Of a stretch of 45,169 nt of DNA, positions 1,345-43,220 are shown piece after piece (position 1 is the first letter of the stretch; every line of letters starts with the position of its first letter). Source of the DNA: a virus; the IMG/VR virus record IMGVR_UViG_3300020442_002097, positions 1 to 45,169 of that record. One strand, given 5' to 3'. The translations under genes were made by a program, and so were the position numbers. The notes below the pieces were generated by a model. The model saw only the letters and a program-made list of their open reading frames with translations. It was not told where the DNA came from and did not search any database.

Positions 1345-1549
1345 CATTATTCTCATAAAATTTTTTGTGTTGCCTGTATAAGTCCTTATCTTGATAGTAT
1401 TTAGACATCAAACTTTCCATCAGCAATTCTACTAACTCTTCCCGTCTACCCTCTAGCATAAACCTAGCGACTGGCTCTGCCTGCGATCTTATCACCAGAT
1501 CTTTAGGCGGCTCTACAATCTTCTTTGTCTTATATGGTCTATACGCCAC
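1334..1549 (-). CDS. Hypothetical protein
   Basis: I prefer the GTG at 1549-1547, giving a 71-residue basic protein beginning with (M)AYRPYKTKKIVEPP. A longer reading from an ATG at 1627 would lie largely inside the nucleotidyltransferase gene. The chosen start overlaps the end of that gene by 11 bases. The product looks helical and charged (GRREELVELLMESLMSKYY). No family recognised; the start is uncertain. Confidence 0.6.
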   Translation of the reverse strand: MAYRPYKTKKIVEPPKDLVIRSQAEPVARFMLEGRREELVELLMESLMSKYYQDKDLYRQHKKFYENNVDK

Positions 1550-1985
1550 GAATTTTACTCTTTTCCAATAGTCTGCTTGATGATTCTGTTTTACCACCAC
1601 CAATATTATACAGTGTCTCAATCCCAACTTCTCGACAGTATTCTTCTTCAGGCGTGTTGCCTGCTACTCTATCACCGCCGTTCATAAACACAAATGAATC
1701 AATGAATGGATCGTCCTTGTTCCAATTATAAATCCATTCTATACTCTTAACTACAGTCCCGTCATCGTCCTTAGCGATCAACCCTCTGTTTACAGATTGT
1801 AACGCTTTAACAATTCTTAGTCTACTCTCCTCATCCATAAACACTTCGCTACCCTTGATCTCTACCTGCTTATCACTGTTCACAATAACGTACAAAAGAT
1901 CACAGTTCTGGTTAGCTGATTCTATATAGTCTAAGTGTCCTGTATGCAACGGGTTGAAATACCCTGATATGATACCAATTCTCAC
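1539..1985 (-). CDS. Cytidylyltransferase-fold nucleotidyltransferase
   Basis: A 148-residue enzyme of the HxGH nucleotidyltransferase family. H14-T-G-H17 lies in GYFNPLHTGHLDYI, which binds the nucleotide phosphates, and GGGKTESSSRLL near residue 135 corresponds to the second phosphate-binding loop. The length suits single-domain glycerol-3-phosphate cytidylyltransferase or heptose-1-phosphate adenylyltransferase (RfaE/HldE C-terminal) types. These activate a phosphorylated sugar or polyol for envelope polymers. The start is GTG (1985-1983), overlapping the upstream stop as GTGA, with GGAGG ten bases before. The nearby cupin and methyltransferase suggest a role in sugar modification; the substrate cannot be read from sequence alone. 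Confidence 0.85.
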   Translation of the reverse strand: MRIGIISGYFNPLHTGHLDYIESANQNCDLLYVIVNSDKQVEIKGSEVFMDEESRLRIVKALQSVNRGLIAKDDDGTVVKSIEWIYNWNKDDPFIDSFVFMNGGDRVAGNTPEEEYCREVGIETLYNIGGGKTESSSRLLEKSKIRGV

Positions 1986-2478: not shown

Positions 2479-2816
2479 TGGAGGTGGGCGGAATCGAACC
2501 GCCGTCCTGCCTAGCTTCCACAATAAACTCTACATGTTTAGTATAATTGTTATCGCCCACTATACTAGGCTATCCGATTATCGGAGTCAGGCAGTTTACT
2601 GCCATCATATGTATTTAGTTCAAGTACATAATCTTTATCAGAATTATCTGAGTCATCACTATTTGGTTTGCGGGGCTGTGATACCCTTGCCGCTAGGCGG
2701 CTAGTGAGAAATTCTCTTCTGCACTTAAAAAATTTGAACGATTTTTACAGTAGCCATTCGTTCAACTACTACATGCAATCATTGTTTTAACTATCAGTCG
2801 AATCCAATTCACCCCC
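2479..2816 (-). ncRNA. ssrA: Transfer-messenger RNA (tmRNA)
   Basis: tmRNA frees stalled ribosomes by acting first as tRNA-Ala and then as mRNA for a degradation tag. The 5' end (from 2816) reads GGGGGTG then GGATTCGAC, and the 3' end reads CACCTCC-A. These give a 7-bp acceptor with a G3-U70 pair, the alanine identity element. The T arm is GGCGG-TTCGATT-CCGCC, preceded by ACTAAACATGTAGAG as in bacterial tmRNAs. Pseudoknot 1 is clear: AGTAG pairs with CTACT and TTGAACGA pairs with TCGTTCAA, with GTAAAAA between. After it the resume codon GCA (2722-2720) opens the tag AEENFSLAA, ending at TAG (2695-2693). The later pseudoknot region is short and less clear. CCA is not encoded. No smpB is seen, so host SmpB is presumably used. 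The first 30 nt overlap a protein gene. Confidence 0.93.
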
Positions 2817-3179
2817 GTTTTTCTTCTTCTTCTTCTTCTTTTCCTCTGCTACCTTTTTTCCCTCTTCAGTCAGAGTAAAGTAGAACTGCCCATCTTCTCC
2901 GACTAGCGGTTCCACTAAGCCCTGTTTTACTAAGTTTTCCACAACAACTCCGGCTGTCCCATCACTGAAGACCTCTATTACCTCGCTATTGTCGTTATTT
3001 ATTATTTTGTTTGTTGGTATACTCATCACGTCGTATATCTTATTTTCAGTCTCAGGTGGTAGTTTCTCCAAAGCTGACATGGCCTTATTTAGTGACGTAA
3101 AAGCTCCAACGACATCGTAGTCAAACTCAGTGAACTTCTCTGAAAATCTGTATTCAAATATAATATGTATGTTTCTCAT
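2787..3179 (-). CDS. Hypothetical protein overlapping the tmRNA 5' end
   Basis: A 130-residue protein with a probable winged-helix-like C-terminal half (VVENLVKQGLVEPL...FYFTLTEEGKKVAEE) followed by a Lys run. Its last nine codons (GGELDSTDS) and stop are read from the tRNA-like 5' end of the tmRNA. The ATG at 3179-3177 is nine bases from the tRNA-Arg 3' end, whose GGGAG acceptor bases could serve as the ribosome site. A TTG two codons earlier is possible. The gene therefore sits between, and shares bases with, two structured RNAs. No family recognised. Confidence 0.8.
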   Translation of the reverse strand: MRNIHIIFEYRFSEKFTEFDYDVVGAFTSLNKAMSALEKLPPETENKIYDVMSIPTNKIINNDNSEVIEVFSDGTAGVVVENLVKQGLVEPLVGEDGQFYFTLTEEGKKVAEEKKKKKKKNGGELDSTDS

Positions 3180-3187
3180 AATCAAAG

Positions 3188-3260
<73 letters not shown>

Positions 3261-3921: not shown

Positions 3922-3949
3922 ATTATAGCATAGGAATACTGTTTGTCAA
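3922..3949 (-). promoter_or_regulatory. Sigma70-type early promoter
   Basis: Minus strand TTGACA (3949-3944) and TATAAT (3927-3922) are 16 bp apart, about 20 bases upstream of the zinc-ribbon gene. The spacer lacks the CGATA seen in most other early promoters. Confidence 0.75.
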
Positions 3950-22113: not shown

Positions 22114-22921
22114 TTTTAGCTCAGGTAAGATAGAATCTGCAAAAACTGACTCAAAGTCTAACAGATTAATCTTACTAGCTAACAAAAACTTCGCCCATTG
22201 CCCGCCGCAGTATCGTGACGGAGCAAAAGAAGGCCGTTTCAATGACGTTCTTATAAGAAATCATTACGAAACTGGCATAAGATTCTTCTATCACTTAGAA
22301 AAATTTGAAAAAGACAGTAATTGTATAGAAAATTCCGTGTTATTTGCCGAACAAGGCGTTGGGTATACCGAAATTGAAGACGGAAATCTATATTTTGTAA
22401 GAGAACACGCCTGTTATAGCGGAAGAGACGCCTTTTCCCTTACCTACAACTCCGCAGGAAGGGAACCTCACTATATCCATAGCGACGACCCCGTAGTTAT
22501 TAGGTCAATTACTCCTAAAAACTACATTCACGCACTCGCATCGCCCCATTGTGTCATCGCTTCTGTTGATGCGTACTCTCCAACGCCAGTCGAACTCGAA
22601 GAAAACGCCCTTTTAGGTCGTAAAGATGACAGAGTACAGTCAATAGACAAGGATGAACTTAGAGAAATACTAACAGACGAACATATTATTGACGCAGTAA
22701 AGAAAACCCAAGGACAAATCGCCCTTTCCAGCCGCAGAGTCAATTTAACTCGCAAGAACTCTGTATTATCAGCTCCGATGGTAAGAGCCTATCCGCCTTA
22801 TAAAGAAAAAGCCAAACCAAAAGCACAAAAAGGTACAATCATATACAATGAAGACACAGATTGTTTAGAATATTTCACAGGAACTGAGTGGAGGACTATC
22901 AGCTGGGAGCTTAGTGAGTGA
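22088..22921 (+). CDS. Hypothetical late protein
   Basis: A 277-residue protein with GGAGAA seven bases before its ATG. No catalytic motif is seen. The end, GTIIYNEDTDCLEYFTGTEWRTI, is a short motif often found in phage tail fibre or structural proteins (GTxxYNxxTxxxxxYxGTxWxxL). This hints at a virion role. It overlaps the sigma factor gene as GTGA. Confidence 0.7.
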   Translation: MANLKSKNNFSSGKIESAKTDSKSNRLILLANKNFAHCPPQYRDGAKEGRFNDVLIRNHYETGIRFFYHLEKFEKDSNCIENSVLFAEQGVGYTEIEDGNLYFVREHACYSGRDAFSLTYNSAGREPHYIHSDDPVVIRSITPKNYIHALASPHCVIASVDAYSPTPVELEENALLGRKDDRVQSIDKDELREILTDEHIIDAVKKTQGQIALSSRRVNLTRKNSVLSAPMVRAYPPYKEKAKPKAQKGTIIYNEDTDCLEYFTGTEWRTISWELSE

Positions 22922-23421
22922 GGATACCACCAAGCATGACAGAAGAGCAGGTAATTGACACCATAATGCTCGTCGTCAACAGAACCGCAGCCAAGTATAC
23001 GTTTTATGGCTATACAGTTGATGATATAAAACAAGAATCCTTTATTATCTGCATGGACGCCCTTGACAGATACCAAGAAGGACGCCCACTAGAAAACTTC
23101 CTAGCAGTACATTTATCAAATAGACTAAAGAACTTTGTAAGAGATAACCACTTTAATAAAAACGAAGAAGAAAAAGCTAAAGTCCTAATGCCCGGCCAAC
23201 TTTCCAATGACAACACTATCATATCGCCCCAAAGCCTGCAGGCTAATCATCAAGATAAAATAGATACAAAAGAAATGCAAAGAATCGTAAATAACAAGTT
23301 GCCTTCAGAGTATAGAGTAGATTATTTAAAGATCGTTAATGATGTATACGTACCAAAAAAGCAACGAGAAGAAGTACTTCAATGTGTTTACCAAATTTTA
23401 GAGGAACATGGTCATGCGTAA
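22918..23421 (+). CDS. Sigma factor, T4 gp55-like (late transcription)
   Basis: About 167 residues from GTG at 22918 (GGGAG upstream), or 161 from ATG 22936. The segment YTVDDIKQESFIICMDALDRYQEGRPLENFLAVHLSNRLKNFVRD (about residues 32-76) matches sigma70 region 2, which binds core polymerase and the -10 element. No region 4 HTH is evident, as in T4 gp55, so promoters should lack a -35. GTGTATAA sites without -35 precede three late genes. It therefore likely redirects host RNA polymerase to late promoters. An alternative is an ECF-like regulator. Confidence 0.75.
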   Translation: MRIPPSMTEEQVIDTIMLVVNRTAAKYTFYGYTVDDIKQESFIICMDALDRYQEGRPLENFLAVHLSNRLKNFVRDNHFNKNEEEKAKVLMPGQLSNDNTIISPQSLQANHQDKIDTKEMQRIVNNKLPSEYRVDYLKIVNDVYVPKKQREEVLQCVYQILEEHGHA

Positions 23422-24209: not shown

Positions 24210-25280
24210 ATGAAGAAAGCGATTGTATTCGGGGTTACCGGCCAAGACGGGAGCCACTTAGCAGACTTACTGTTAGATAAGCAGTATAAGGTGATTGGAG
24301 TAAACAGAAGAGCCAGTACAGATAATACTGAACGTATCAGTCACATTTTGGATCACGAAAGATTCGAGCTGGTTCAAGCGGACATAACGGATGCACATAG
24401 TGTTTATCAGGTTCTTAAGGATAACGATGACGTAGATGAAGTCTATAATCTTGCGGCACAATCTCATGTAGGTGTCTCTTTCAAACAACCAGCACTAACT
24501 TGGGATATAACAGGAAAAGGATGCTTAAACATCTTACAGTCTATTGTGGAACTAGGCTTATTTGGATGCAGATTTTATCAAGCTTCTAGCAGTGAGATGT
24601 TTGGTGCTTCATACGATATCAATAGAGATCAAGTAAAATATCAAAACGAAGAGACTAAGTTCCTACCTCAGTCGCCATATGCTATCGCTAAGTGCGCCTC
24701 ACACTATATGACGAGGCTATGCAGAGAGGGGTACGGAATCCACGCAAGTGCCGGAATACTGTTCAATCACGAGGGACCAAGAAGAGGCGAAACATTCGTA
24801 ACAAGAAAAATTACTAAATGGATTGGAGACTTTATAAGATGGAAGAAAAAACACCAAGTAGAAGACTATTCTGTCCTGACTTTTTCAGAAGACCATATAC
24901 ATGTACATCCAAAGGCATCTGATGTAGATGCTAAATTTCCAAAGCTACGTCTGGGGAACCTCGAAGCATTTAGAGATTGGGGGTATGCGGGAGATTATGT
25001 TGAGGCCATGTGGATGATGCTTCAACAGGACCAACCGGATGACTATGTTATCTGCACGGGGGAAACCCACACTATTCGTGAGTTTCTCAACGTGGCCTTT
25101 GGACATTCAGGTATAGGAGACTGGGATAGTTTTGTTGTTCAAGACCCAGAGTTCTACAGACCTGCTGAAGTTGACTATTTAAGAGGAGACAACACAAAAG
25201 CAACAACCAAACTTGGATGGGAACCTAGACATTCTTTTGAAGATTTGGCTAAGCTAATGGTGGATCATGATATACAATGA
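24210..25280 (+). CDS. gmd: GDP-mannose 4,6-dehydratase
   Basis: A 356-residue short-chain dehydrogenase-type enzyme converting GDP-mannose to GDP-4-keto-6-deoxymannose, precursor of fucose, rhamnose and perosamine-type sugars. GVTGQDGSHLADLLL at residues 8-22 is the NADP-binding glycine motif in the form typical of GMD. RRAST follows, SSSEMFG is at about 126-132, and the YxxxK pair is Y157/K161. GDYVEAMWMMLQQD is also typical. Length is normal, so it is probably active. Phages that carry gmd are known, and the gene may alter host or virion glycans. AAAGGA precedes the ATG. Confidence 0.95.
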   Translation: MKKAIVFGVTGQDGSHLADLLLDKQYKVIGVNRRASTDNTERISHILDHERFELVQADITDAHSVYQVLKDNDDVDEVYNLAAQSHVGVSFKQPALTWDITGKGCLNILQSIVELGLFGCRFYQASSSEMFGASYDINRDQVKYQNEETKFLPQSPYAIAKCASHYMTRLCREGYGIHASAGILFNHEGPRRGETFVTRKITKWIGDFIRWKKKHQVEDYSVLTFSEDHIHVHPKASDVDAKFPKLRLGNLEAFRDWGYAGDYVEAMWMMLQQDQPDDYVICTGETHTIREFLNVAFGHSGIGDWDSFVVQDPEFYRPAEVDYLRGDNTKATTKLGWEPRHSFEDLAKLMVDHDIQ

Positions 25281-25525
25281 AAACATACAAAGTCTACATG
25301 GACTTGACTTTGATAATATACGAACTGACGAAGTTTGACTTAAAGGAATATAACACATCCTTCCCAATAGTATTTGTCGAATCAGACGATCCTGACGGAG
25401 CTTGTTATATTGCGTTATACAGACTAATACAGATAATACTAAGACAAGACGCTTCGTTAGAAACGACTACACTTTGTAGAAGACTTAAAAACGATATTAG
25501 AATAACAAAAGTTTTTGTGCCATGA
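25277..25525 (+). CDS. Hypothetical protein
   Basis: An 82-residue protein linked by ATGA overlaps to gmd and to the HNH gene. Mixed beta-alpha pattern (KTYKVYMDLTLIIYELTKFDL ... GACYIALYRLIQIILRQD). No family recognised. Confidence 0.7.
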   Translation: MKTYKVYMDLTLIIYELTKFDLKEYNTSFPIVFVESDDPDGACYIALYRLIQIILRQDASLETTTLCRRLKNDIRITKVFVP

Positions 25526-25806
25526 GAAGAAATTATGACGATCCAGTTTACAAAGACTGGAGAAAGAAAGTTTACAAGCGCGACGGCTTTAGATGCCAGA
25601 TGCCGCAATGTAATTCTAATTTCAGACTACAAGCACATCATATTAAAAAGTGGTCATCCGCCGCTGCATTGAGATACGAAGTTGATAATGGAATAACCCT
25701 ATGTCGTGAATGCCACGAAAAAGTAAACGGGTTTGAGTCCCATTACGAGTACATATTCAACACTATAGTATCTCAGAAAAATGCCAAAAAACGCAAGAGC
25801 ACCTAA
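25522..25806 (+). CDS. Small HNH endonuclease
   Basis: A 94-residue nuclease of the McrA-like HNH type. C25/C30 and C61/C64 form the zinc ribbon, H39-H40 start the HNH core in QAHHIKKWS, and NGITLCRECHEKV completes it. It lacks the long linkers of homing enzymes. Many tailed phages keep a small HNH protein beside the terminase to help DNA packaging, which fits this position. It overlaps both neighbours. Confidence 0.88.
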   Translation: MRRNYDDPVYKDWRKKVYKRDGFRCQMPQCNSNFRLQAHHIKKWSSAAALRYEVDNGITLCRECHEKVNGFESHYEYIFNTIVSQKNAKKRKST

Positions 25807-26284
25807 GTACACTGTCATAAGAGACACGAGAGAGCAAGAAGGTTATTACTTTAGCGAGTATGATCTGTGTCTTGGTATGATAGATCAAAAACTGGATACC
25901 GGAGACTATTCAATAGTTGGCCTTGAAGACAAAGTATGTATAGAAAGAAAAGGCTGTGTGGAAGAATTAGCTATTAACCTAGGACAAAAGAAACATACGT
26001 TCCTAAGAGAAATAGAAAGAATGAAAGATTTTCCGCATAAGTTTATAATATTAGAGTTCAGCCTATCTGAGTTAATAGACTTTCCTGAGAATAGTAGAAT
26101 ACCTGAAAAAAGCAAAAACTCGGTGAAGATAACCGGAAAGTATATGCTAAAGTGTTTAATGGAATTTCAGCTATATGACAACATCCATGTAATATTTTGC
26201 GGAAATAAGTATAACGCATTCCTTACCGTTAGTAGTTTACTAAAGAGGGTTAACGAGCTTTATACTGTCGGAAGAAAAAAATGA
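25781..26284 (+). CDS. ERCC4-domain nuclease
   Basis: A 167-residue single-domain nuclease of the XPF/Mus81 ERCC4 fold. RDTREQEGYYF (residues 14-24), LDTGDYSIVGLEDKVCIERKG with the signature ERK, and a conserved basic KHTFLREIERM helix are visible. The family cuts branched DNA or flaps near the ss/ds junction with a metal ion. In a phage it may resolve branched replication products before packaging. It lies between HNH and ClpP-like genes, overlapping both. Confidence 0.85.
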   Translation: MPKNARAPKYTVIRDTREQEGYYFSEYDLCLGMIDQKLDTGDYSIVGLEDKVCIERKGCVEELAINLGQKKHTFLREIERMKDFPHKFIILEFSLSELIDFPENSRIPEKSKNSVKITGKYMLKCLMEFQLYDNIHVIFCGNKYNAFLTVSSLLKRVNELYTVGRKK

Positions 26285-26925
26285 ACGATATCGTAGACTC
26301 AATACACGGACAAAGTGTAGATTTAAAACAAAGGGAAATATATCTACATGGACATCACGGACCATTCGACGACGATCCCGGTGTGGAATATCGTATGGCT
26401 ACCACCTTTATAAAAAACATTAGATATTTGGACTCCTTGAAAAATGAACCAATTCTTATTCATATGCACAGCCTTGGTGGAAACTGGGGCGATGGCATGG
26501 CTATATACGATGCTATCAAAGTCGCAAGATCGCACACAACAATAATTACATATGGCCAAGCAGAATCTATGAGTAGTATCATACTTCAAGCTGCTGATGT
26601 TAGAATCATGATGCCCAACTCATATTTCATGTGCCACTATGGCTCTAGCAGCAATGCTGGCAACTTCCTAGACACGCAAAACTGGGCTCAGTTTGAATTA
26701 AAAATGCTAGACACTATGCTTGACATATATATTGAAAAATGTATGAAGGGTAAGTTTTTCAAGGAAAAGTTTGAAGACTTAAGTGAGTCTAAGGTTAGAT
26801 CTTACATAAAGAGAAAGCTTAAAGATGGTGATTGGTACATTGACAGTAACGAAGCTGTCTACTACGGCTTTGCAGACGGTGTACTGTCTACTAGAAAGTA
26901 TAGAGGAATAGAAAGCTTAAAGTGA
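26281..26925 (+). CDS. ClpP-like serine protease
   Basis: A 214-residue protein of the ClpP/crotonase fold (S14). HMHSLGGNWGDGMAIYDAI is the substrate-lining loop. S96 in AESMSSIILQAAD matches the nucleophile of ClpP (ASMGA), and H119 in YFMCHYGSS the catalytic His. The Asp is not obvious. VYYGFADGV near the end matches the usual A-x-x-YGLID. ClpP-like enzymes serve as prohead proteases in many phages. Here a different protease-like domain is fused to the scaffold, so its target is open. It overlaps terL as GTGA. Confidence 0.8.
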   Translation: MNDIVDSIHGQSVDLKQREIYLHGHHGPFDDDPGVEYRMATTFIKNIRYLDSLKNEPILIHMHSLGGNWGDGMAIYDAIKVARSHTTIITYGQAESMSSIILQAADVRIMMPNSYFMCHYGSSSNAGNFLDTQNWAQFELKMLDTMLDIYIEKCMKGKFFKEKFEDLSESKVRSYIKRKLKDGDWYIDSNEAVYYGFADGVLSTRKYRGIESLK

Positions 26926-28913
26926 CAAACAGTCTTAAGAAAATAGATGAAGCTTGGCTAGGATTAGATATATCTGAAGAAGACCTGTTCAATCCAATGG
27001 ACATGTTAAACCCTACCGAAGACGACTACCACCTAAAGTTGTCTTGGTTAATGGTTAGGCCGGAATACTTCTCATTCCTTTGCAAACAAATATTCAACAT
27101 ACAAATCCTACCATCACAAGCCTTAATGCTTCAAGAAATGTGGAACAGAAGATTCCCAATGCTTATAGCTAGTCGTGGTTTTGGTAAATCTTTTATGCTT
27201 TCATTATATGCAATGATGAGAGCTTTGCTATTGCCTAATAGAAAAGTTGTTGTTGTCGGTGCTGCATTTAGACAGTCTAAAGTTTTGTTTGAATACATGG
27301 AAACTATATGGAACAACTCTCCTATCTTAAGAGATATATGCGATAGTAATAGCGGACCAAGAAGAGATGTCGATAGATGTGTTATGAGGCTAAACGATAG
27401 CAGGGTAACATGCCTACCTCTCGGTGATGGACAAAAAATTCGTGGTCAGCGTGCTAATGATATTATATCTGACGAGTTCGCGTCTATACCTAGAGATATA
27501 TTTGAAACAGTCGTTGCCGGTTTTGCCGCAGTTAGTGCAGACCCAATAGACAATGTTAAAAGAATAGCAGCTCAGAAGAAAGCAGAAGAACTTGGTATAT
27601 CACTAGATGCTCAAGAGGAATCTGTCGCAAACAACAAAGACAACCAGATCATACTTTCCGGAACAGCTTATTATGACTTCAACCATTTCGCAACATACTG
27701 GAAAAAATGGAAATCTATCATAAAAAGCAAAGGCGAGTTGTCTAGACTAAGGGATGTGTTTGGCGGTGAAGATCCACCGTCTGACTTTGACTGGACTGAA
27801 TATTCTGTAATAAGAATACCATACGAATTGCTTCCAGAAGGTTTTATGGACGCTGCTCAAGTGGCTAGATCAAAAGCTACAGTTCATGCAGGTATTTACC
27901 AAATGGAATTTGGAGCCTGCTTTACCAGAGACTCACAAGGCTTCTTCAAGCGCTCCCTAATCGAGTCTTGCGTCGCATCTGAACAAGAGCCTATAAAAAC
28001 TATAAATGGCGACGAGATCTCTTTTAGCGCATCTATAATTGGAGACCCTAAAAAACATTATATATTTGGTGTTGACCCAGCTTCTGAAGTAGACAACTTC
28101 TCAATTGTTGTACTAGAGGTCAATCCTGATCATAGACGAATAGTTCATTGCTGGACGACGACGAGGTCAGAACATAGAGAAAAGGTCAAACAAGGCTACT
28201 CTAGCGAAACAGACTTCTATGCATACTGCGCTAGGAAGATAAGAGACTTAATGAAAAGATATCCTTGCATTCATATAGCTATGGATGCTCAGGGTGGCGG
28301 CATAGCTGTTATGGAGTCATTACACGACAAAGATAAGCTTCAGCAGGGTGAGCAACCAATCTGGCCAGTAATAGACGAAGACAAAGAGAAAGACACTGAC
28401 GATGAAAAAGGCTTACATATACTAGAGATGTGTCAGTTTGCTAAATACGATTGGCTTTCTGAAGCAAATCATGGTATGAGAAAAGACTTTGAGGATAAAG
28501 CTCTTTTATTTCCTCACTTCGACGCCGTGAGCATAGGCTTGTCAAATGCTGAAGATGGACTTAAAGGGAGAGTGTTCGACACGCTAGAAGAGTGTGTTAT
28601 GGACATAGAGGAGCTTAAAGACGAACTCTCAATGATACAGATTACACAGACAGCTACTGGCAGAGACAGGTGGGACACTCCTGAGATCATAGTAGCTGCT
28701 GGCAAAAAAAGCAAGATGCGCAAAGACCGATACTCTGCCTTAGTAATGGCCAACATGGCAGCTAGATGCTTAGCTAGGATGCCGTCCCCTACAGAGTACA
28801 AATTTTATGGAGGATTTGCAACGATATCAGAGGCCGAAAAGAAGAGGGCTATGTCAGGAGAAGACTTCTCTGGCCCAAACTGGTTTACAGAAAATATGAA
28901 AGATATCTATTAG
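26922..28913 (+). CDS. terL: Large terminase subunit
   Basis: A 663-residue packaging motor: ATPase plus nuclease. It starts at GTG 26922. Walker A is SRGFGKS at residues 84-90, Walker B D184-E185 in NDIISDEFAS, and SGTAYYD at about 246 is the coupling region. The RNase-H-like nuclease shows GVDPASEVDNFSIVVL, HIAMDAQGGG and RKDRYSALVMANMAA with the expected acidic residues. It cuts concatemers and pumps DNA through the portal encoded next. Length and motif order are normal. Confidence 0.93.
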   Translation: MTNSLKKIDEAWLGLDISEEDLFNPMDMLNPTEDDYHLKLSWLMVRPEYFSFLCKQIFNIQILPSQALMLQEMWNRRFPMLIASRGFGKSFMLSLYAMMRALLLPNRKVVVVGAAFRQSKVLFEYMETIWNNSPILRDICDSNSGPRRDVDRCVMRLNDSRVTCLPLGDGQKIRGQRANDIISDEFASIPRDIFETVVAGFAAVSADPIDNVKRIAAQKKAEELGISLDAQEESVANNKDNQIILSGTAYYDFNHFATYWKKWKSIIKSKGELSRLRDVFGGEDPPSDFDWTEYSVIRIPYELLPEGFMDAAQVARSKATVHAGIYQMEFGACFTRDSQGFFKRSLIESCVASEQEPIKTINGDEISFSASIIGDPKKHYIFGVDPASEVDNFSIVVLEVNPDHRRIVHCWTTTRSEHREKVKQGYSSETDFYAYCARKIRDLMKRYPCIHIAMDAQGGGIAVMESLHDKDKLQQGEQPIWPVIDEDKEKDTDDEKGLHILEMCQFAKYDWLSEANHGMRKDFEDKALLFPHFDAVSIGLSNAEDGLKGRVFDTLEECVMDIEELKDELSMIQITQTATGRDRWDTPEIIVAAGKKSKMRKDRYSALVMANMAARCLARMPSPTEYKFYGGFATISEAEKKRAMSGEDFSGPNWFTENMKDIY

Positions 28914-41720: not shown

Positions 41721-43220
41721 ATGGGAAGACCTCCTAGTTGTCATTGCAAGTGTGGCGTAAGCACTGAAATTCCACCGCCACCACCAGAAAAGTCTAACTT
41801 CTTCACTATCATATTTCAAGACGAAGCTGAGCAGTCTTACTGCTGCGATGCAAAATACGAGAGTGTTTATATTGAAGATCTAATATACCTAAGACAAAAA
41901 TCTCAGAGAATTGGGCGTTGTGACATGGCCTTCATGCACGTTGAGGAAGGCGCGTATGGGACTGAACTAAAGCCTAGAACAAGAGACGACGGAGGGGTAG
42001 AAGGTCTTCCCGAGGAAGTATTGTACATCAAGAAAAATGTAAAAAGAAATACTATCACCTCTGCTGACAGAGCCGCTTTAAAACATATAACAGAACAGAT
42101 CTTAAGAGGCAACTATGACTGCTTTGCTGTTTTTATAGATAATAGCGGTAGTTTGGGAGTAGCCAAAGTTAGAGCCCTAATAGACGAGTGGTATTGGAAC
42201 ATATCCACAAACGAAGCTAGCCATGCGACCTACCAAAGATATATAGTCGATTCTAATGGCGATCCAAATCCTCTTCCTAGTTGCTTGAATGGCGGTGGAA
42301 ACAAAACAGGCGATGGATTTACCGTAAAAGCTAATGGCTGTGCATACGAGATTTTAAACATAAACGAAAGGTGGCTCCTACACGCTGCTAATGGTTCTCA
42401 AGCCATATACGACGCACCCGGACTTTGCGCTAGCCGGCCAGACATAGACGAAGACGAAGACGGTATTCCTGATTGCGACTGCACAACTGGCTTGGGCTGG
42501 CCTGAACTGTGCGCTGTTTTTATGGATAGAAACAAAGTTCCTACAACTGTTAACTTTAATGTAAGCTGGATAAAAGCAGGCACTTTGTCCGAAGACGATA
42601 CTGACGACGACATCGATAACCCAGCTGTCTTTGTTGAACTCAAAGATCAATTTGGAAATGTTTCAAACTCAGAGTTTAAAGCAGATATAATGGAGGCTTT
42701 TGCTGTCTGGAAAGCGGCTCTTGAAAATGCTTGCTCTTGGTTAACTGTCACATTTACTGATATAGGCGATGAAACTATAACAACCCTAAGGAGTACCGGA
42801 GGACGAGGAAGGCCCGGCGACTCCACGGGAACTTACAGATTCTCAGACTACCCCGGAGCAAATATAGGGGATATAAGAGTGGGTATGCACACGATGGCTA
42901 AAGCTAGCGTGCTGGCACATGCTTATTATCCCGGAGCTATTCTAGGAGTTACTGGAAATCATGGGGGAGACATGCACTTTGACTATGCTGACAGATGGAG
43001 AAGAGATGGTCAGGTAGTAGCTAACGCTTTTAGCATAAAAATGGTAGCTGTTCATGAATTTGGCCACGCACTAGGCTTACCACACTTCTCCGACCCAAAT
43101 ACTATAATGTATTCCTTCGCCAAAGGGTCTAGCACAGATTACGATACTGAATGGGCAGACGGAGTTATAGGCGACACAACAACATACAACGCTTTAAAAG
43201 CGCTTTACTGCGGAGTTTAA
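41721..43220 (+). CDS. Matrixin-type zinc metalloprotease, tail-linked
   Basis: A 499-residue protein with AAGGAGG before the ATG. The C-terminal half is an M10 (matrix metalloproteinase-like) domain: DIRVGMHTMAKASVLAHAYYPG, GGDMHFDYADRW and the zinc site HEFGHALGLPH (H445, H449, H455, general base E446). The Met turn is M463 in NTIMYSF. Other parts are DNSGS at residues 140-144, like a MIDAS metal motif of von Willebrand A domains, and DIDEDEDGIPDCDC at 241-254, like a thrombospondin type 3 calcium repeat. An N-terminal KCGV segment recalls a cysteine switch but is weak. Between two fibre genes, it is probably virion-bound and may digest surface proteins of the host. Confidence 0.88.
   Translation: MGRPPSCHCKCGVSTEIPPPPPEKSNFFTIIFQDEAEQSYCCDAKYESVYIEDLIYLRQKSQRIGRCDMAFMHVEEGAYGTELKPRTRDDGGVEGLPEEVLYIKKNVKRNTITSADRAALKHITEQILRGNYDCFAVFIDNSGSLGVAKVRALIDEWYWNISTNEASHATYQRYIVDSNGDPNPLPSCLNGGGNKTGDGFTVKANGCAYEILNINERWLLHAANGSQAIYDAPGLCASRPDIDEDEDGIPDCDCTTGLGWPELCAVFMDRNKVPTTVNFNVSWIKAGTLSEDDTDDDIDNPAVFVELKDQFGNVSNSEFKADIMEAFAVWKAALENACSWLTVTFTDIGDETITTLRSTGGRGRPGDSTGTYRFSDYPGANIGDIRVGMHTMAKASVLAHAYYPGAILGVTGNHGGDMHFDYADRWRRDGQVVANAFSIKMVAVHEFGHALGLPHFSDPNTIMYSFAKGSSTDYDTEWADGVIGDTTTYNALKALYCGV

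Follow-up and report, generated by a model that had tools for sequence, protein, structure and literature searches.

tmRNA genes in phages are not new. Mycobacteriophages Bxz1 and Wildcat and the Bacillus phage G have one (PMC4131195), and the OM43 phage Melnitz has a tmRNA made of two pieces (PMC9004378). Altogether, 402 of 18,146 phage genomes (2.3%) contain a tmRNA gene, in one-piece or two-piece form (PMC9004378). A first-pass annotation of the DNA considered here had stated that few phages carry tmRNA; in view of these numbers the statement is fair, yet within the phage group to be described the gene is common. A reduced form is also known: mycobacteriophage DS6A has an RNA that comprises the tRNA-like domain only, and a similar molecule is reported to be a strong inhibitor of tmRNA, possibly through titration of SmpB (PMC4131195). 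The tmRNA gene presented below is thus a newly found, well-supported member of an established class.

The tmRNA gene and its fold

The window, i.e., the whole stretch of DNA that was analysed, is a linear IMG/VR record of 45 kb (45,169 nt). The elements of its tmRNA gene are the following.

2479 to 2816, minus strand: one-piece tmRNA (ssrA) with a mature length of 338 nt; CCA not encoded (full-length RF00023 match, ARAGORN, covariation)
2810 to 2816, minus strand: 5' strand of the acceptor stem, GGGGGUG, with the G3 of the identity pair G3-U70 (RF00023; 7 of 7 pairs in 10 of 10 homologues)
2734 to 2770, minus strand: pseudoknot 1 (PK1), S1 AGUAG/CUACU, S2 UUGAACGA/UCGUUCAA (homologue alignment; motif GTAGTTGANNGAANGGCTAC)
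2693 to 2722, minus strand: tag reading frame with resume codon GCA, AEENFSLAA and stop UAG (ARAGORN, reading frame, shuffles)
2655 to 2686, minus strand: pseudoknot 2 (PK2), S1 GGGU/GCCC, S2 AUCAC/GUGAU (homologue alignment)
2540 to 2570, minus strand: 3'-most pseudoknot, GCCU/GGGC and AGUAUA/UAUACU (compensatory changes in some homologues)
2480 to 2503, minus strand: T arm and 3' strand of the acceptor stem (RF00023, homologue alignment)

Positions 2479 to 2816 are a full-length one-piece tmRNA gene. The covariance search proposed in the first-pass annotation yields a match to RF00023 at 2476-2816 on the minus strand with 116.2 bits (E 7e-45), far above the gathering score of 47, and all 374 model positions (1-374) are covered. 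ARAGORN reads the same tag, AEENFSLAA, from the window as the RF00023-matched gene contains. The complete ssrA that had been proposed, with G3-U70 in the acceptor, T arm, PK1, GCA and a tag ending in LAA and stop, is thereby confirmed end to end, and the strand, which had not been named, is the minus strand. The 474-nt gene that ARAGORN delimits, with its 5' end at 2951, is over-extended; the mature RNA runs from 2816 to 2479. GGGGGUG pairs with CACCUCC, G3-U70 included, and is followed by the discriminator A and then by CUC, which means that CCA is absent from the gene. The window and nine homologues all have the 7-bp acceptor stem with the alanine identity pair G3-U70. The layout is not the permuted one of RF04321: the T arm lies downstream of PK1, and RF00023 is the sole model reported. 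That the gene is phage-encoded, as had been assumed, is borne out by the terminase and head genes of the window and by its being a viral record.

Downstream of PK1 the frame reads GCA GAA GAG AAU UUC UCA CUA GCC GCC UAG. The resume codon is thus followed by a short frame with a hydrophobic end of the AA type and a stop (AEENFSLAA-UAG), a pattern that occurred in none of 100 shuffled sequences.

Pairing was counted in ten homologous tmRNAs from phages over 15 helices, among which are the crossing ones of PK1, PK2 and the 3'-most pseudoknot. Pairing is kept in 96.5% of the cells, a percentage that leans towards the window because the structure was drawn from its sequence; the compensatory changes elsewhere are free of this bias. 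Both sides have changed in 20 pairs. When the 3' partners were slid by 1-3 columns as a control, 35-43% of the cells were paired and at most 5 pairs had a double change. Most of the double changes sit in helix 2, in the T stem and in the hairpins that separate PK2 from the 3' pseudoknot. PK1, an H-type pseudoknot of 5 + 8 bp with at least 92.5% of its cells paired, and PK2 are near-invariant across the ten homologues, and their support comes from position and conservation, not from covariation. Pseudoknots resembling PK1 arise in 3% of shuffles; PK1 alone was therefore dropped as proof of a tmRNA, and covariation was relied on instead. The region of the usual PK3 consists of simple hairpins, while PK2 and the 3' pseudoknot are supported. 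The 3' half, which had been singled out beforehand as the place where the assignment might fail, does fold: its helices are kept, with compensatory changes across the ten homologues. The intact tag frame, the stop and G3-U70 are present in every aligned homologue.

Gene neighbourhood and phage group

The following features surround the gene or served to find its relatives.

3922 to 3949, minus strand: consensus promoter of the sigma-70 type, TTGACA-16-TATAAT, preceding the string with tRNA and tmRNA (consensus match only)
3187 to 3260, minus strand: tRNA-Arg (UCU), preceding the tmRNA within the gene string (ARAGORN; RF00005, 74.5 bits)
2787 to 3185, minus strand: ORF of 132 aa, the last 30 nt of which overlap the 5' end of the tmRNA
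26922 to 28913, plus strand: terminase large subunit (PHROG 2, E 9e-25), the query used for finding the phage group

On the minus strand, the order is promoter (3949-3922), three small ORFs, tRNA-Arg(UCU), the 132-aa ORF, tmRNA and further ORFs including a cytidylyltransferase-like one. If this string is one transcript, the 5' end of the tmRNA must be cut out of it, as by RNase P. No relatives of the ORF at 2787-3185 were found in the viral contigs searched.

The rest of the window contains the terminase, head genes and a protein of 2344 aa. A ClpP-like protein at 26281-26925 (plus strand), directly upstream of the terminase, was considered as part of a phage “tag plus protease” module. The idea was rejected: PHROGs classifies the protein as a head maturation protease (E 1e-29), the best NCBIfam match also points to head maturation, although no NCBIfam model reaches its cut-off, and a head maturation protease is what it most likely is. 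Some further observations concern the window at large. Between 12900 and 20600 on the minus strand, at least seven sigma-70-like promoters of similar sequence (TTGACA..GCCGATA..TATAGTATACT), mostly placed right before a small ORF, look like a family of phage promoters. A sigma-70-like factor at 22918-23421 (plus strand; weak match) might regulate late phage genes. The 94-aa ORF at 25522-25806 (plus strand) matches positions 182-248 of the RNA-guided endonuclease IscB with 36 bits, far under the cut-off, and possibly represents its HNH domain only. At 41721-43220 (plus strand), in the region of the structural genes, a protein of 499 aa ends in a metalloprotease domain of the matrixin type (Peptidase_M10). 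Sugar-nucleotide genes are seen at 24210-25280 (plus strand), 969-1310 and 1539-1985 (both minus strand); they encode a GDP-mannose dehydratase, a cupin resembling mannose-6-phosphate isomerase and the cytidylyltransferase-like protein.

Terminases 74-91% identical to that of the window occur in many IMG/VR contigs, four of which measure 157-174 kb. Among isolated phages, the best matches covering most of the protein are only about 23-26% identical. With many close relatives in IMG/VR and distant ones among the isolates, the window is a piece of a large type of phage that has not been cultivated and to which no isolate in the collection searched belongs. The group is probably mostly marine, as judged from its spread.

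A nucleotide search of 50,697 phage records with the window tmRNA gave no match at E 1e-5. The PK1 motif GTAGTTGANNGAANGGCTAC, in contrast, was found in 39 IMG/VR stretches, mostly tmRNA genes; at least 30 IMG/VR contigs have tmRNAs with the PK1 signature of the window, while none of 121 sampled bacterial tmRNAs shows it. The one-piece copies among these stretches have the tags AEENFSLAA, AEKNFSLAA and VEENFALAA, the permuted ones, i.e., those matching RF04321, GVENYAMAA, ADESLALAA and others. In relatives with VEENFALAA (L268, L273, L276, L294, L300 and L303) the resume codon is GUA (Val), which differs from GCA (Ala) by a single base. Four contigs longer than 150 kb were searched, and each has a tmRNA in one form or the other. 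Together with the kin in at least 30 contigs, this argues that the gene is kept and not drifting. An SmpB gene was found in none of 13 records (the window and 12 related ones, including the four large contigs); host SmpB would therefore have to serve.

One-piece, permuted and tag-less forms

The four largest contigs, which had been chosen by terminase alone (77-79% identity to the window's), differ in the architecture of their tmRNA. G028 has a one-piece gene with the tag AKTTSFALAA; G013, G027 and G031 have permuted genes, in which the 3' half of the acceptor precedes the 5' half. In the terminase tree one-piece and permuted genomes are interleaved; the seven genomes that were labelled require three changes or more, though several forks of the tree are weak. 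Five ORFs on the same strand follow downstream in the same order when one-piece G028 is compared with permuted G013 or with G031, and in the window, G028 and G013 the cytidylyltransferase gene is no more than about 1.5 kb away from the tmRNA. From the common gene order and the near cytidylyltransferase it follows that one-piece and permuted tmRNAs are situated at similar places.

The permuted (two-piece) genes in phages with terminases close to the window's include L088, L089, L090 and further loci. In L088 (1625-1735), the segment between the permuted halves contains the direct repeat AAAGTTGGGTCAGGGTTCCC twice; in L289, near 3080 on the minus strand, a perfect hairpin (GGAATCCAC...GTGGATTCC) is inserted in PK1 of a permuted tmRNA. 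In Maribacter phage Panino (PP540027.1, 27,557-27,889; L312), the annotated tmRNA matches the permuted model RF04321 with 62 bits; in Bacteroidota, the phylum of Panino's host, 40 of 41 sampled genomes have a one-piece tmRNA. Within Planctomycetota, the presumed host phylum (see below), a permuted tmRNA was detected in 1 of 392 genomes. This single case, L264, also matches the alphaproteobacterial model RF01849 and is possibly a foreign contig, and the idea of permuted tmRNAs in that phylum was dropped.

A relative with a terminase 79% identical to the window's, G030, has an RNA of 80 nt (L087:1501-1580; G030:C1:37849-37931) with a tmRNA-like acceptor, T arm and G3-U70, without a tag. Its score of 38.9 bits is under the gathering score of RF00023, and shuffled sequences fold almost as well, without a clear difference (z -1.4). 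It is a candidate for an RNA that consists of the tRNA-like domain only. It lies at a different place, beside homologues of the window's 12-16 kb region, where the window itself has no second tmRNA-like element.

It is conceivable, with a chance somewhat below even, that in one marine phage lineage the tmRNA has switched, at one genomic place, between one-piece and circularly permuted two-piece form, one member having a tRNA-like domain only, perhaps as an inhibitor. If so, permutation would have taken place in viruses, independently of the known two-piece bacterial lineages, while the likely hosts keep a one-piece tmRNA. Permutation within the phage lineage and gene replacement by recombination are both possible; AU tests on the short tmRNA alignment reject neither. 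We found no description of mixed architectures in closely related phages in the open literature.

Tag, host, function and known systems

The tag family AEENF-x-LAA was sought across the species genomes of GTDB. AEENFSLAA differs by one residue from its nearest bacterial tags, AEENFALAA, carried by Rhodopirellula, other Planctomycetota, Veillonella and two Clostridium genomes, and AEENFVLAA, found in one genome of Pirellulales; the exact tag is absent from the GTDB genomes scanned. The C-terminal LAA is the signal read by host ClpXP. The suggestion of the first-pass annotation that tagged proteins might be directed differently, if the host tag differs, is not supported: the tag is near-canonical, only one residue off bacterial tags, and keeps the LAA end, and nothing supports an altered targeting.

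When the tag was left out and the two RNA ends were scored, the window copy and two further phage copies had their best scores with Planctomycetota, not with Veillonella or Clostridium; three of the comparison genomes had been chosen by tag. A BLAST search with the window tmRNA in 197 genomes of the order Pirellulales gave 72% over 123 nt. The closest bacterial tmRNAs sampled are those of Planctomycetota (Pirellulales), with 66-72% over the first 123-144 nt, the likeness being mainly within the 5' domain. A terminase search for prophage kin in 392 Planctomycetota genomes returned weak, distant matches only. The planctomycete link, based on 66-76% identity over about 125 nt plus the tag, is suggestive and falls short of proof; the probable donor of the gene is a planctomycete-like host. 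In a tree of the tmRNA core, one-piece and permuted phage copies group together beside Pirellulales, but the phage contigs were partly chosen by the PK1 motif, and without PK1 the group is less clean and L084 jumps. AU tests on the short alignment reject no alternative origin (p 0.2-0.7). In view of the biased sampling and these tests, a single origin of the phage tmRNAs is not claimed.

What is the gene good for? With a probability of roughly 75%, we consider it a working phage-borne one-piece tmRNA that performs ordinary trans-translation with host factors. Starting from the gene, its fold and tag, G3-U70, its conservation in the phage group and the nearby promoter match, we infer expression, processing, charging, the use of host SmpB and a benefit to the phage. 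Host RNA polymerase would transcribe the tmRNA together with tRNA-Arg in the gene string; RNase P would trim the 5' end and the host would add CCA. Host alanyl-tRNA synthetase would charge the RNA with alanine via G3-U70, and host SmpB and EF-Tu would bind. Breakage of mRNA during infection may raise the need for ribosome rescue. The tmRNA would then enter ribosomes stalled on broken mRNAs, translation would switch to its frame, AEENFSLAA would be added, the ribosome would be freed and the fragment delivered to host ClpXP. The phage might thus gain additional or host-independent ribosome rescue at a time when the transcripts of the host are being degraded and no new ones are made.

Instead of helping, the RNA could act as a decoy that inhibits trans-translation of the host by titrating SmpB or by different tagging. 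The candidate tag-less tRNA-like domain of G030 resembles the DS6A RNA, and such a molecule is reported to inhibit tmRNA (PMC4131195). Yet the window copy and its relatives keep resume codon, frame, stop and canonical LAA end, which are needed only for productive tagging, and we regard a decoy as rather unlikely. The sparse occurrence of tmRNA in phages overall (PMC9004378) might suggest a decaying passenger gene taken from a host, but the compensatory changes, the intact frame and the G3-U70 pair in every aligned homologue make this very improbable. Least probable of all is a remnant of integration. Since ssrA is a frequent attachment site of mobile elements (PMC4131195), the phage or its ancestor might integrate in host ssrA and carry the restoring piece. 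Attachment sites, however, hold a 3' piece, whereas nothing is missing from this gene, which includes the 5' half of the acceptor, PK1, tag and PK2. It is also embedded in a gene string and keeps compensatory changes across the group; the terminase search of the 392 Planctomycetota genomes found no prophage kin, and Pfam, PHROGs and NCBIfam revealed no integrase in the set of proteins scanned.

Beyond the single gene, the group offers many divergent natural tmRNA copies, one-piece and permuted ones sharing their genomic neighbourhood, and a tag-less form as well. It makes two questions approachable: whether phages want more or less ribosome rescue, and how a one-piece tmRNA gene turns into a permuted two-piece one.

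With the bacterial ssrA of RF00023, the window tmRNA shares the acceptor with G3-U70, T arm, helix 2, PK1, resume codon, LAA tag, PK2 and 3' pseudoknot; it differs in being phage-borne, in the reduction of the PK3 region to hairpins and in the lack of an encoded CCA. The tmRNAs of Pirellulales, e.g., of Rhodopirellula with AEENFALAA, have the same tag but for one residue and are 66-72% identical over the first 123-144 nt, but past the 5' domain there is little likeness, and their PK1 sequence is unlike the window's. The known phage tmRNAs, those of Streptomyces phages included, are likewise phage-borne, often lie beside tRNA genes and presumably work with host SmpB; that of Melnitz is two-piece, that of the window one-piece. 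The permuted tmRNAs of G013, G027 and G031 (RF04321), finally, have a PK1 sequence similar to the window's, but their genes, unlike that of the window, are circularly permuted.
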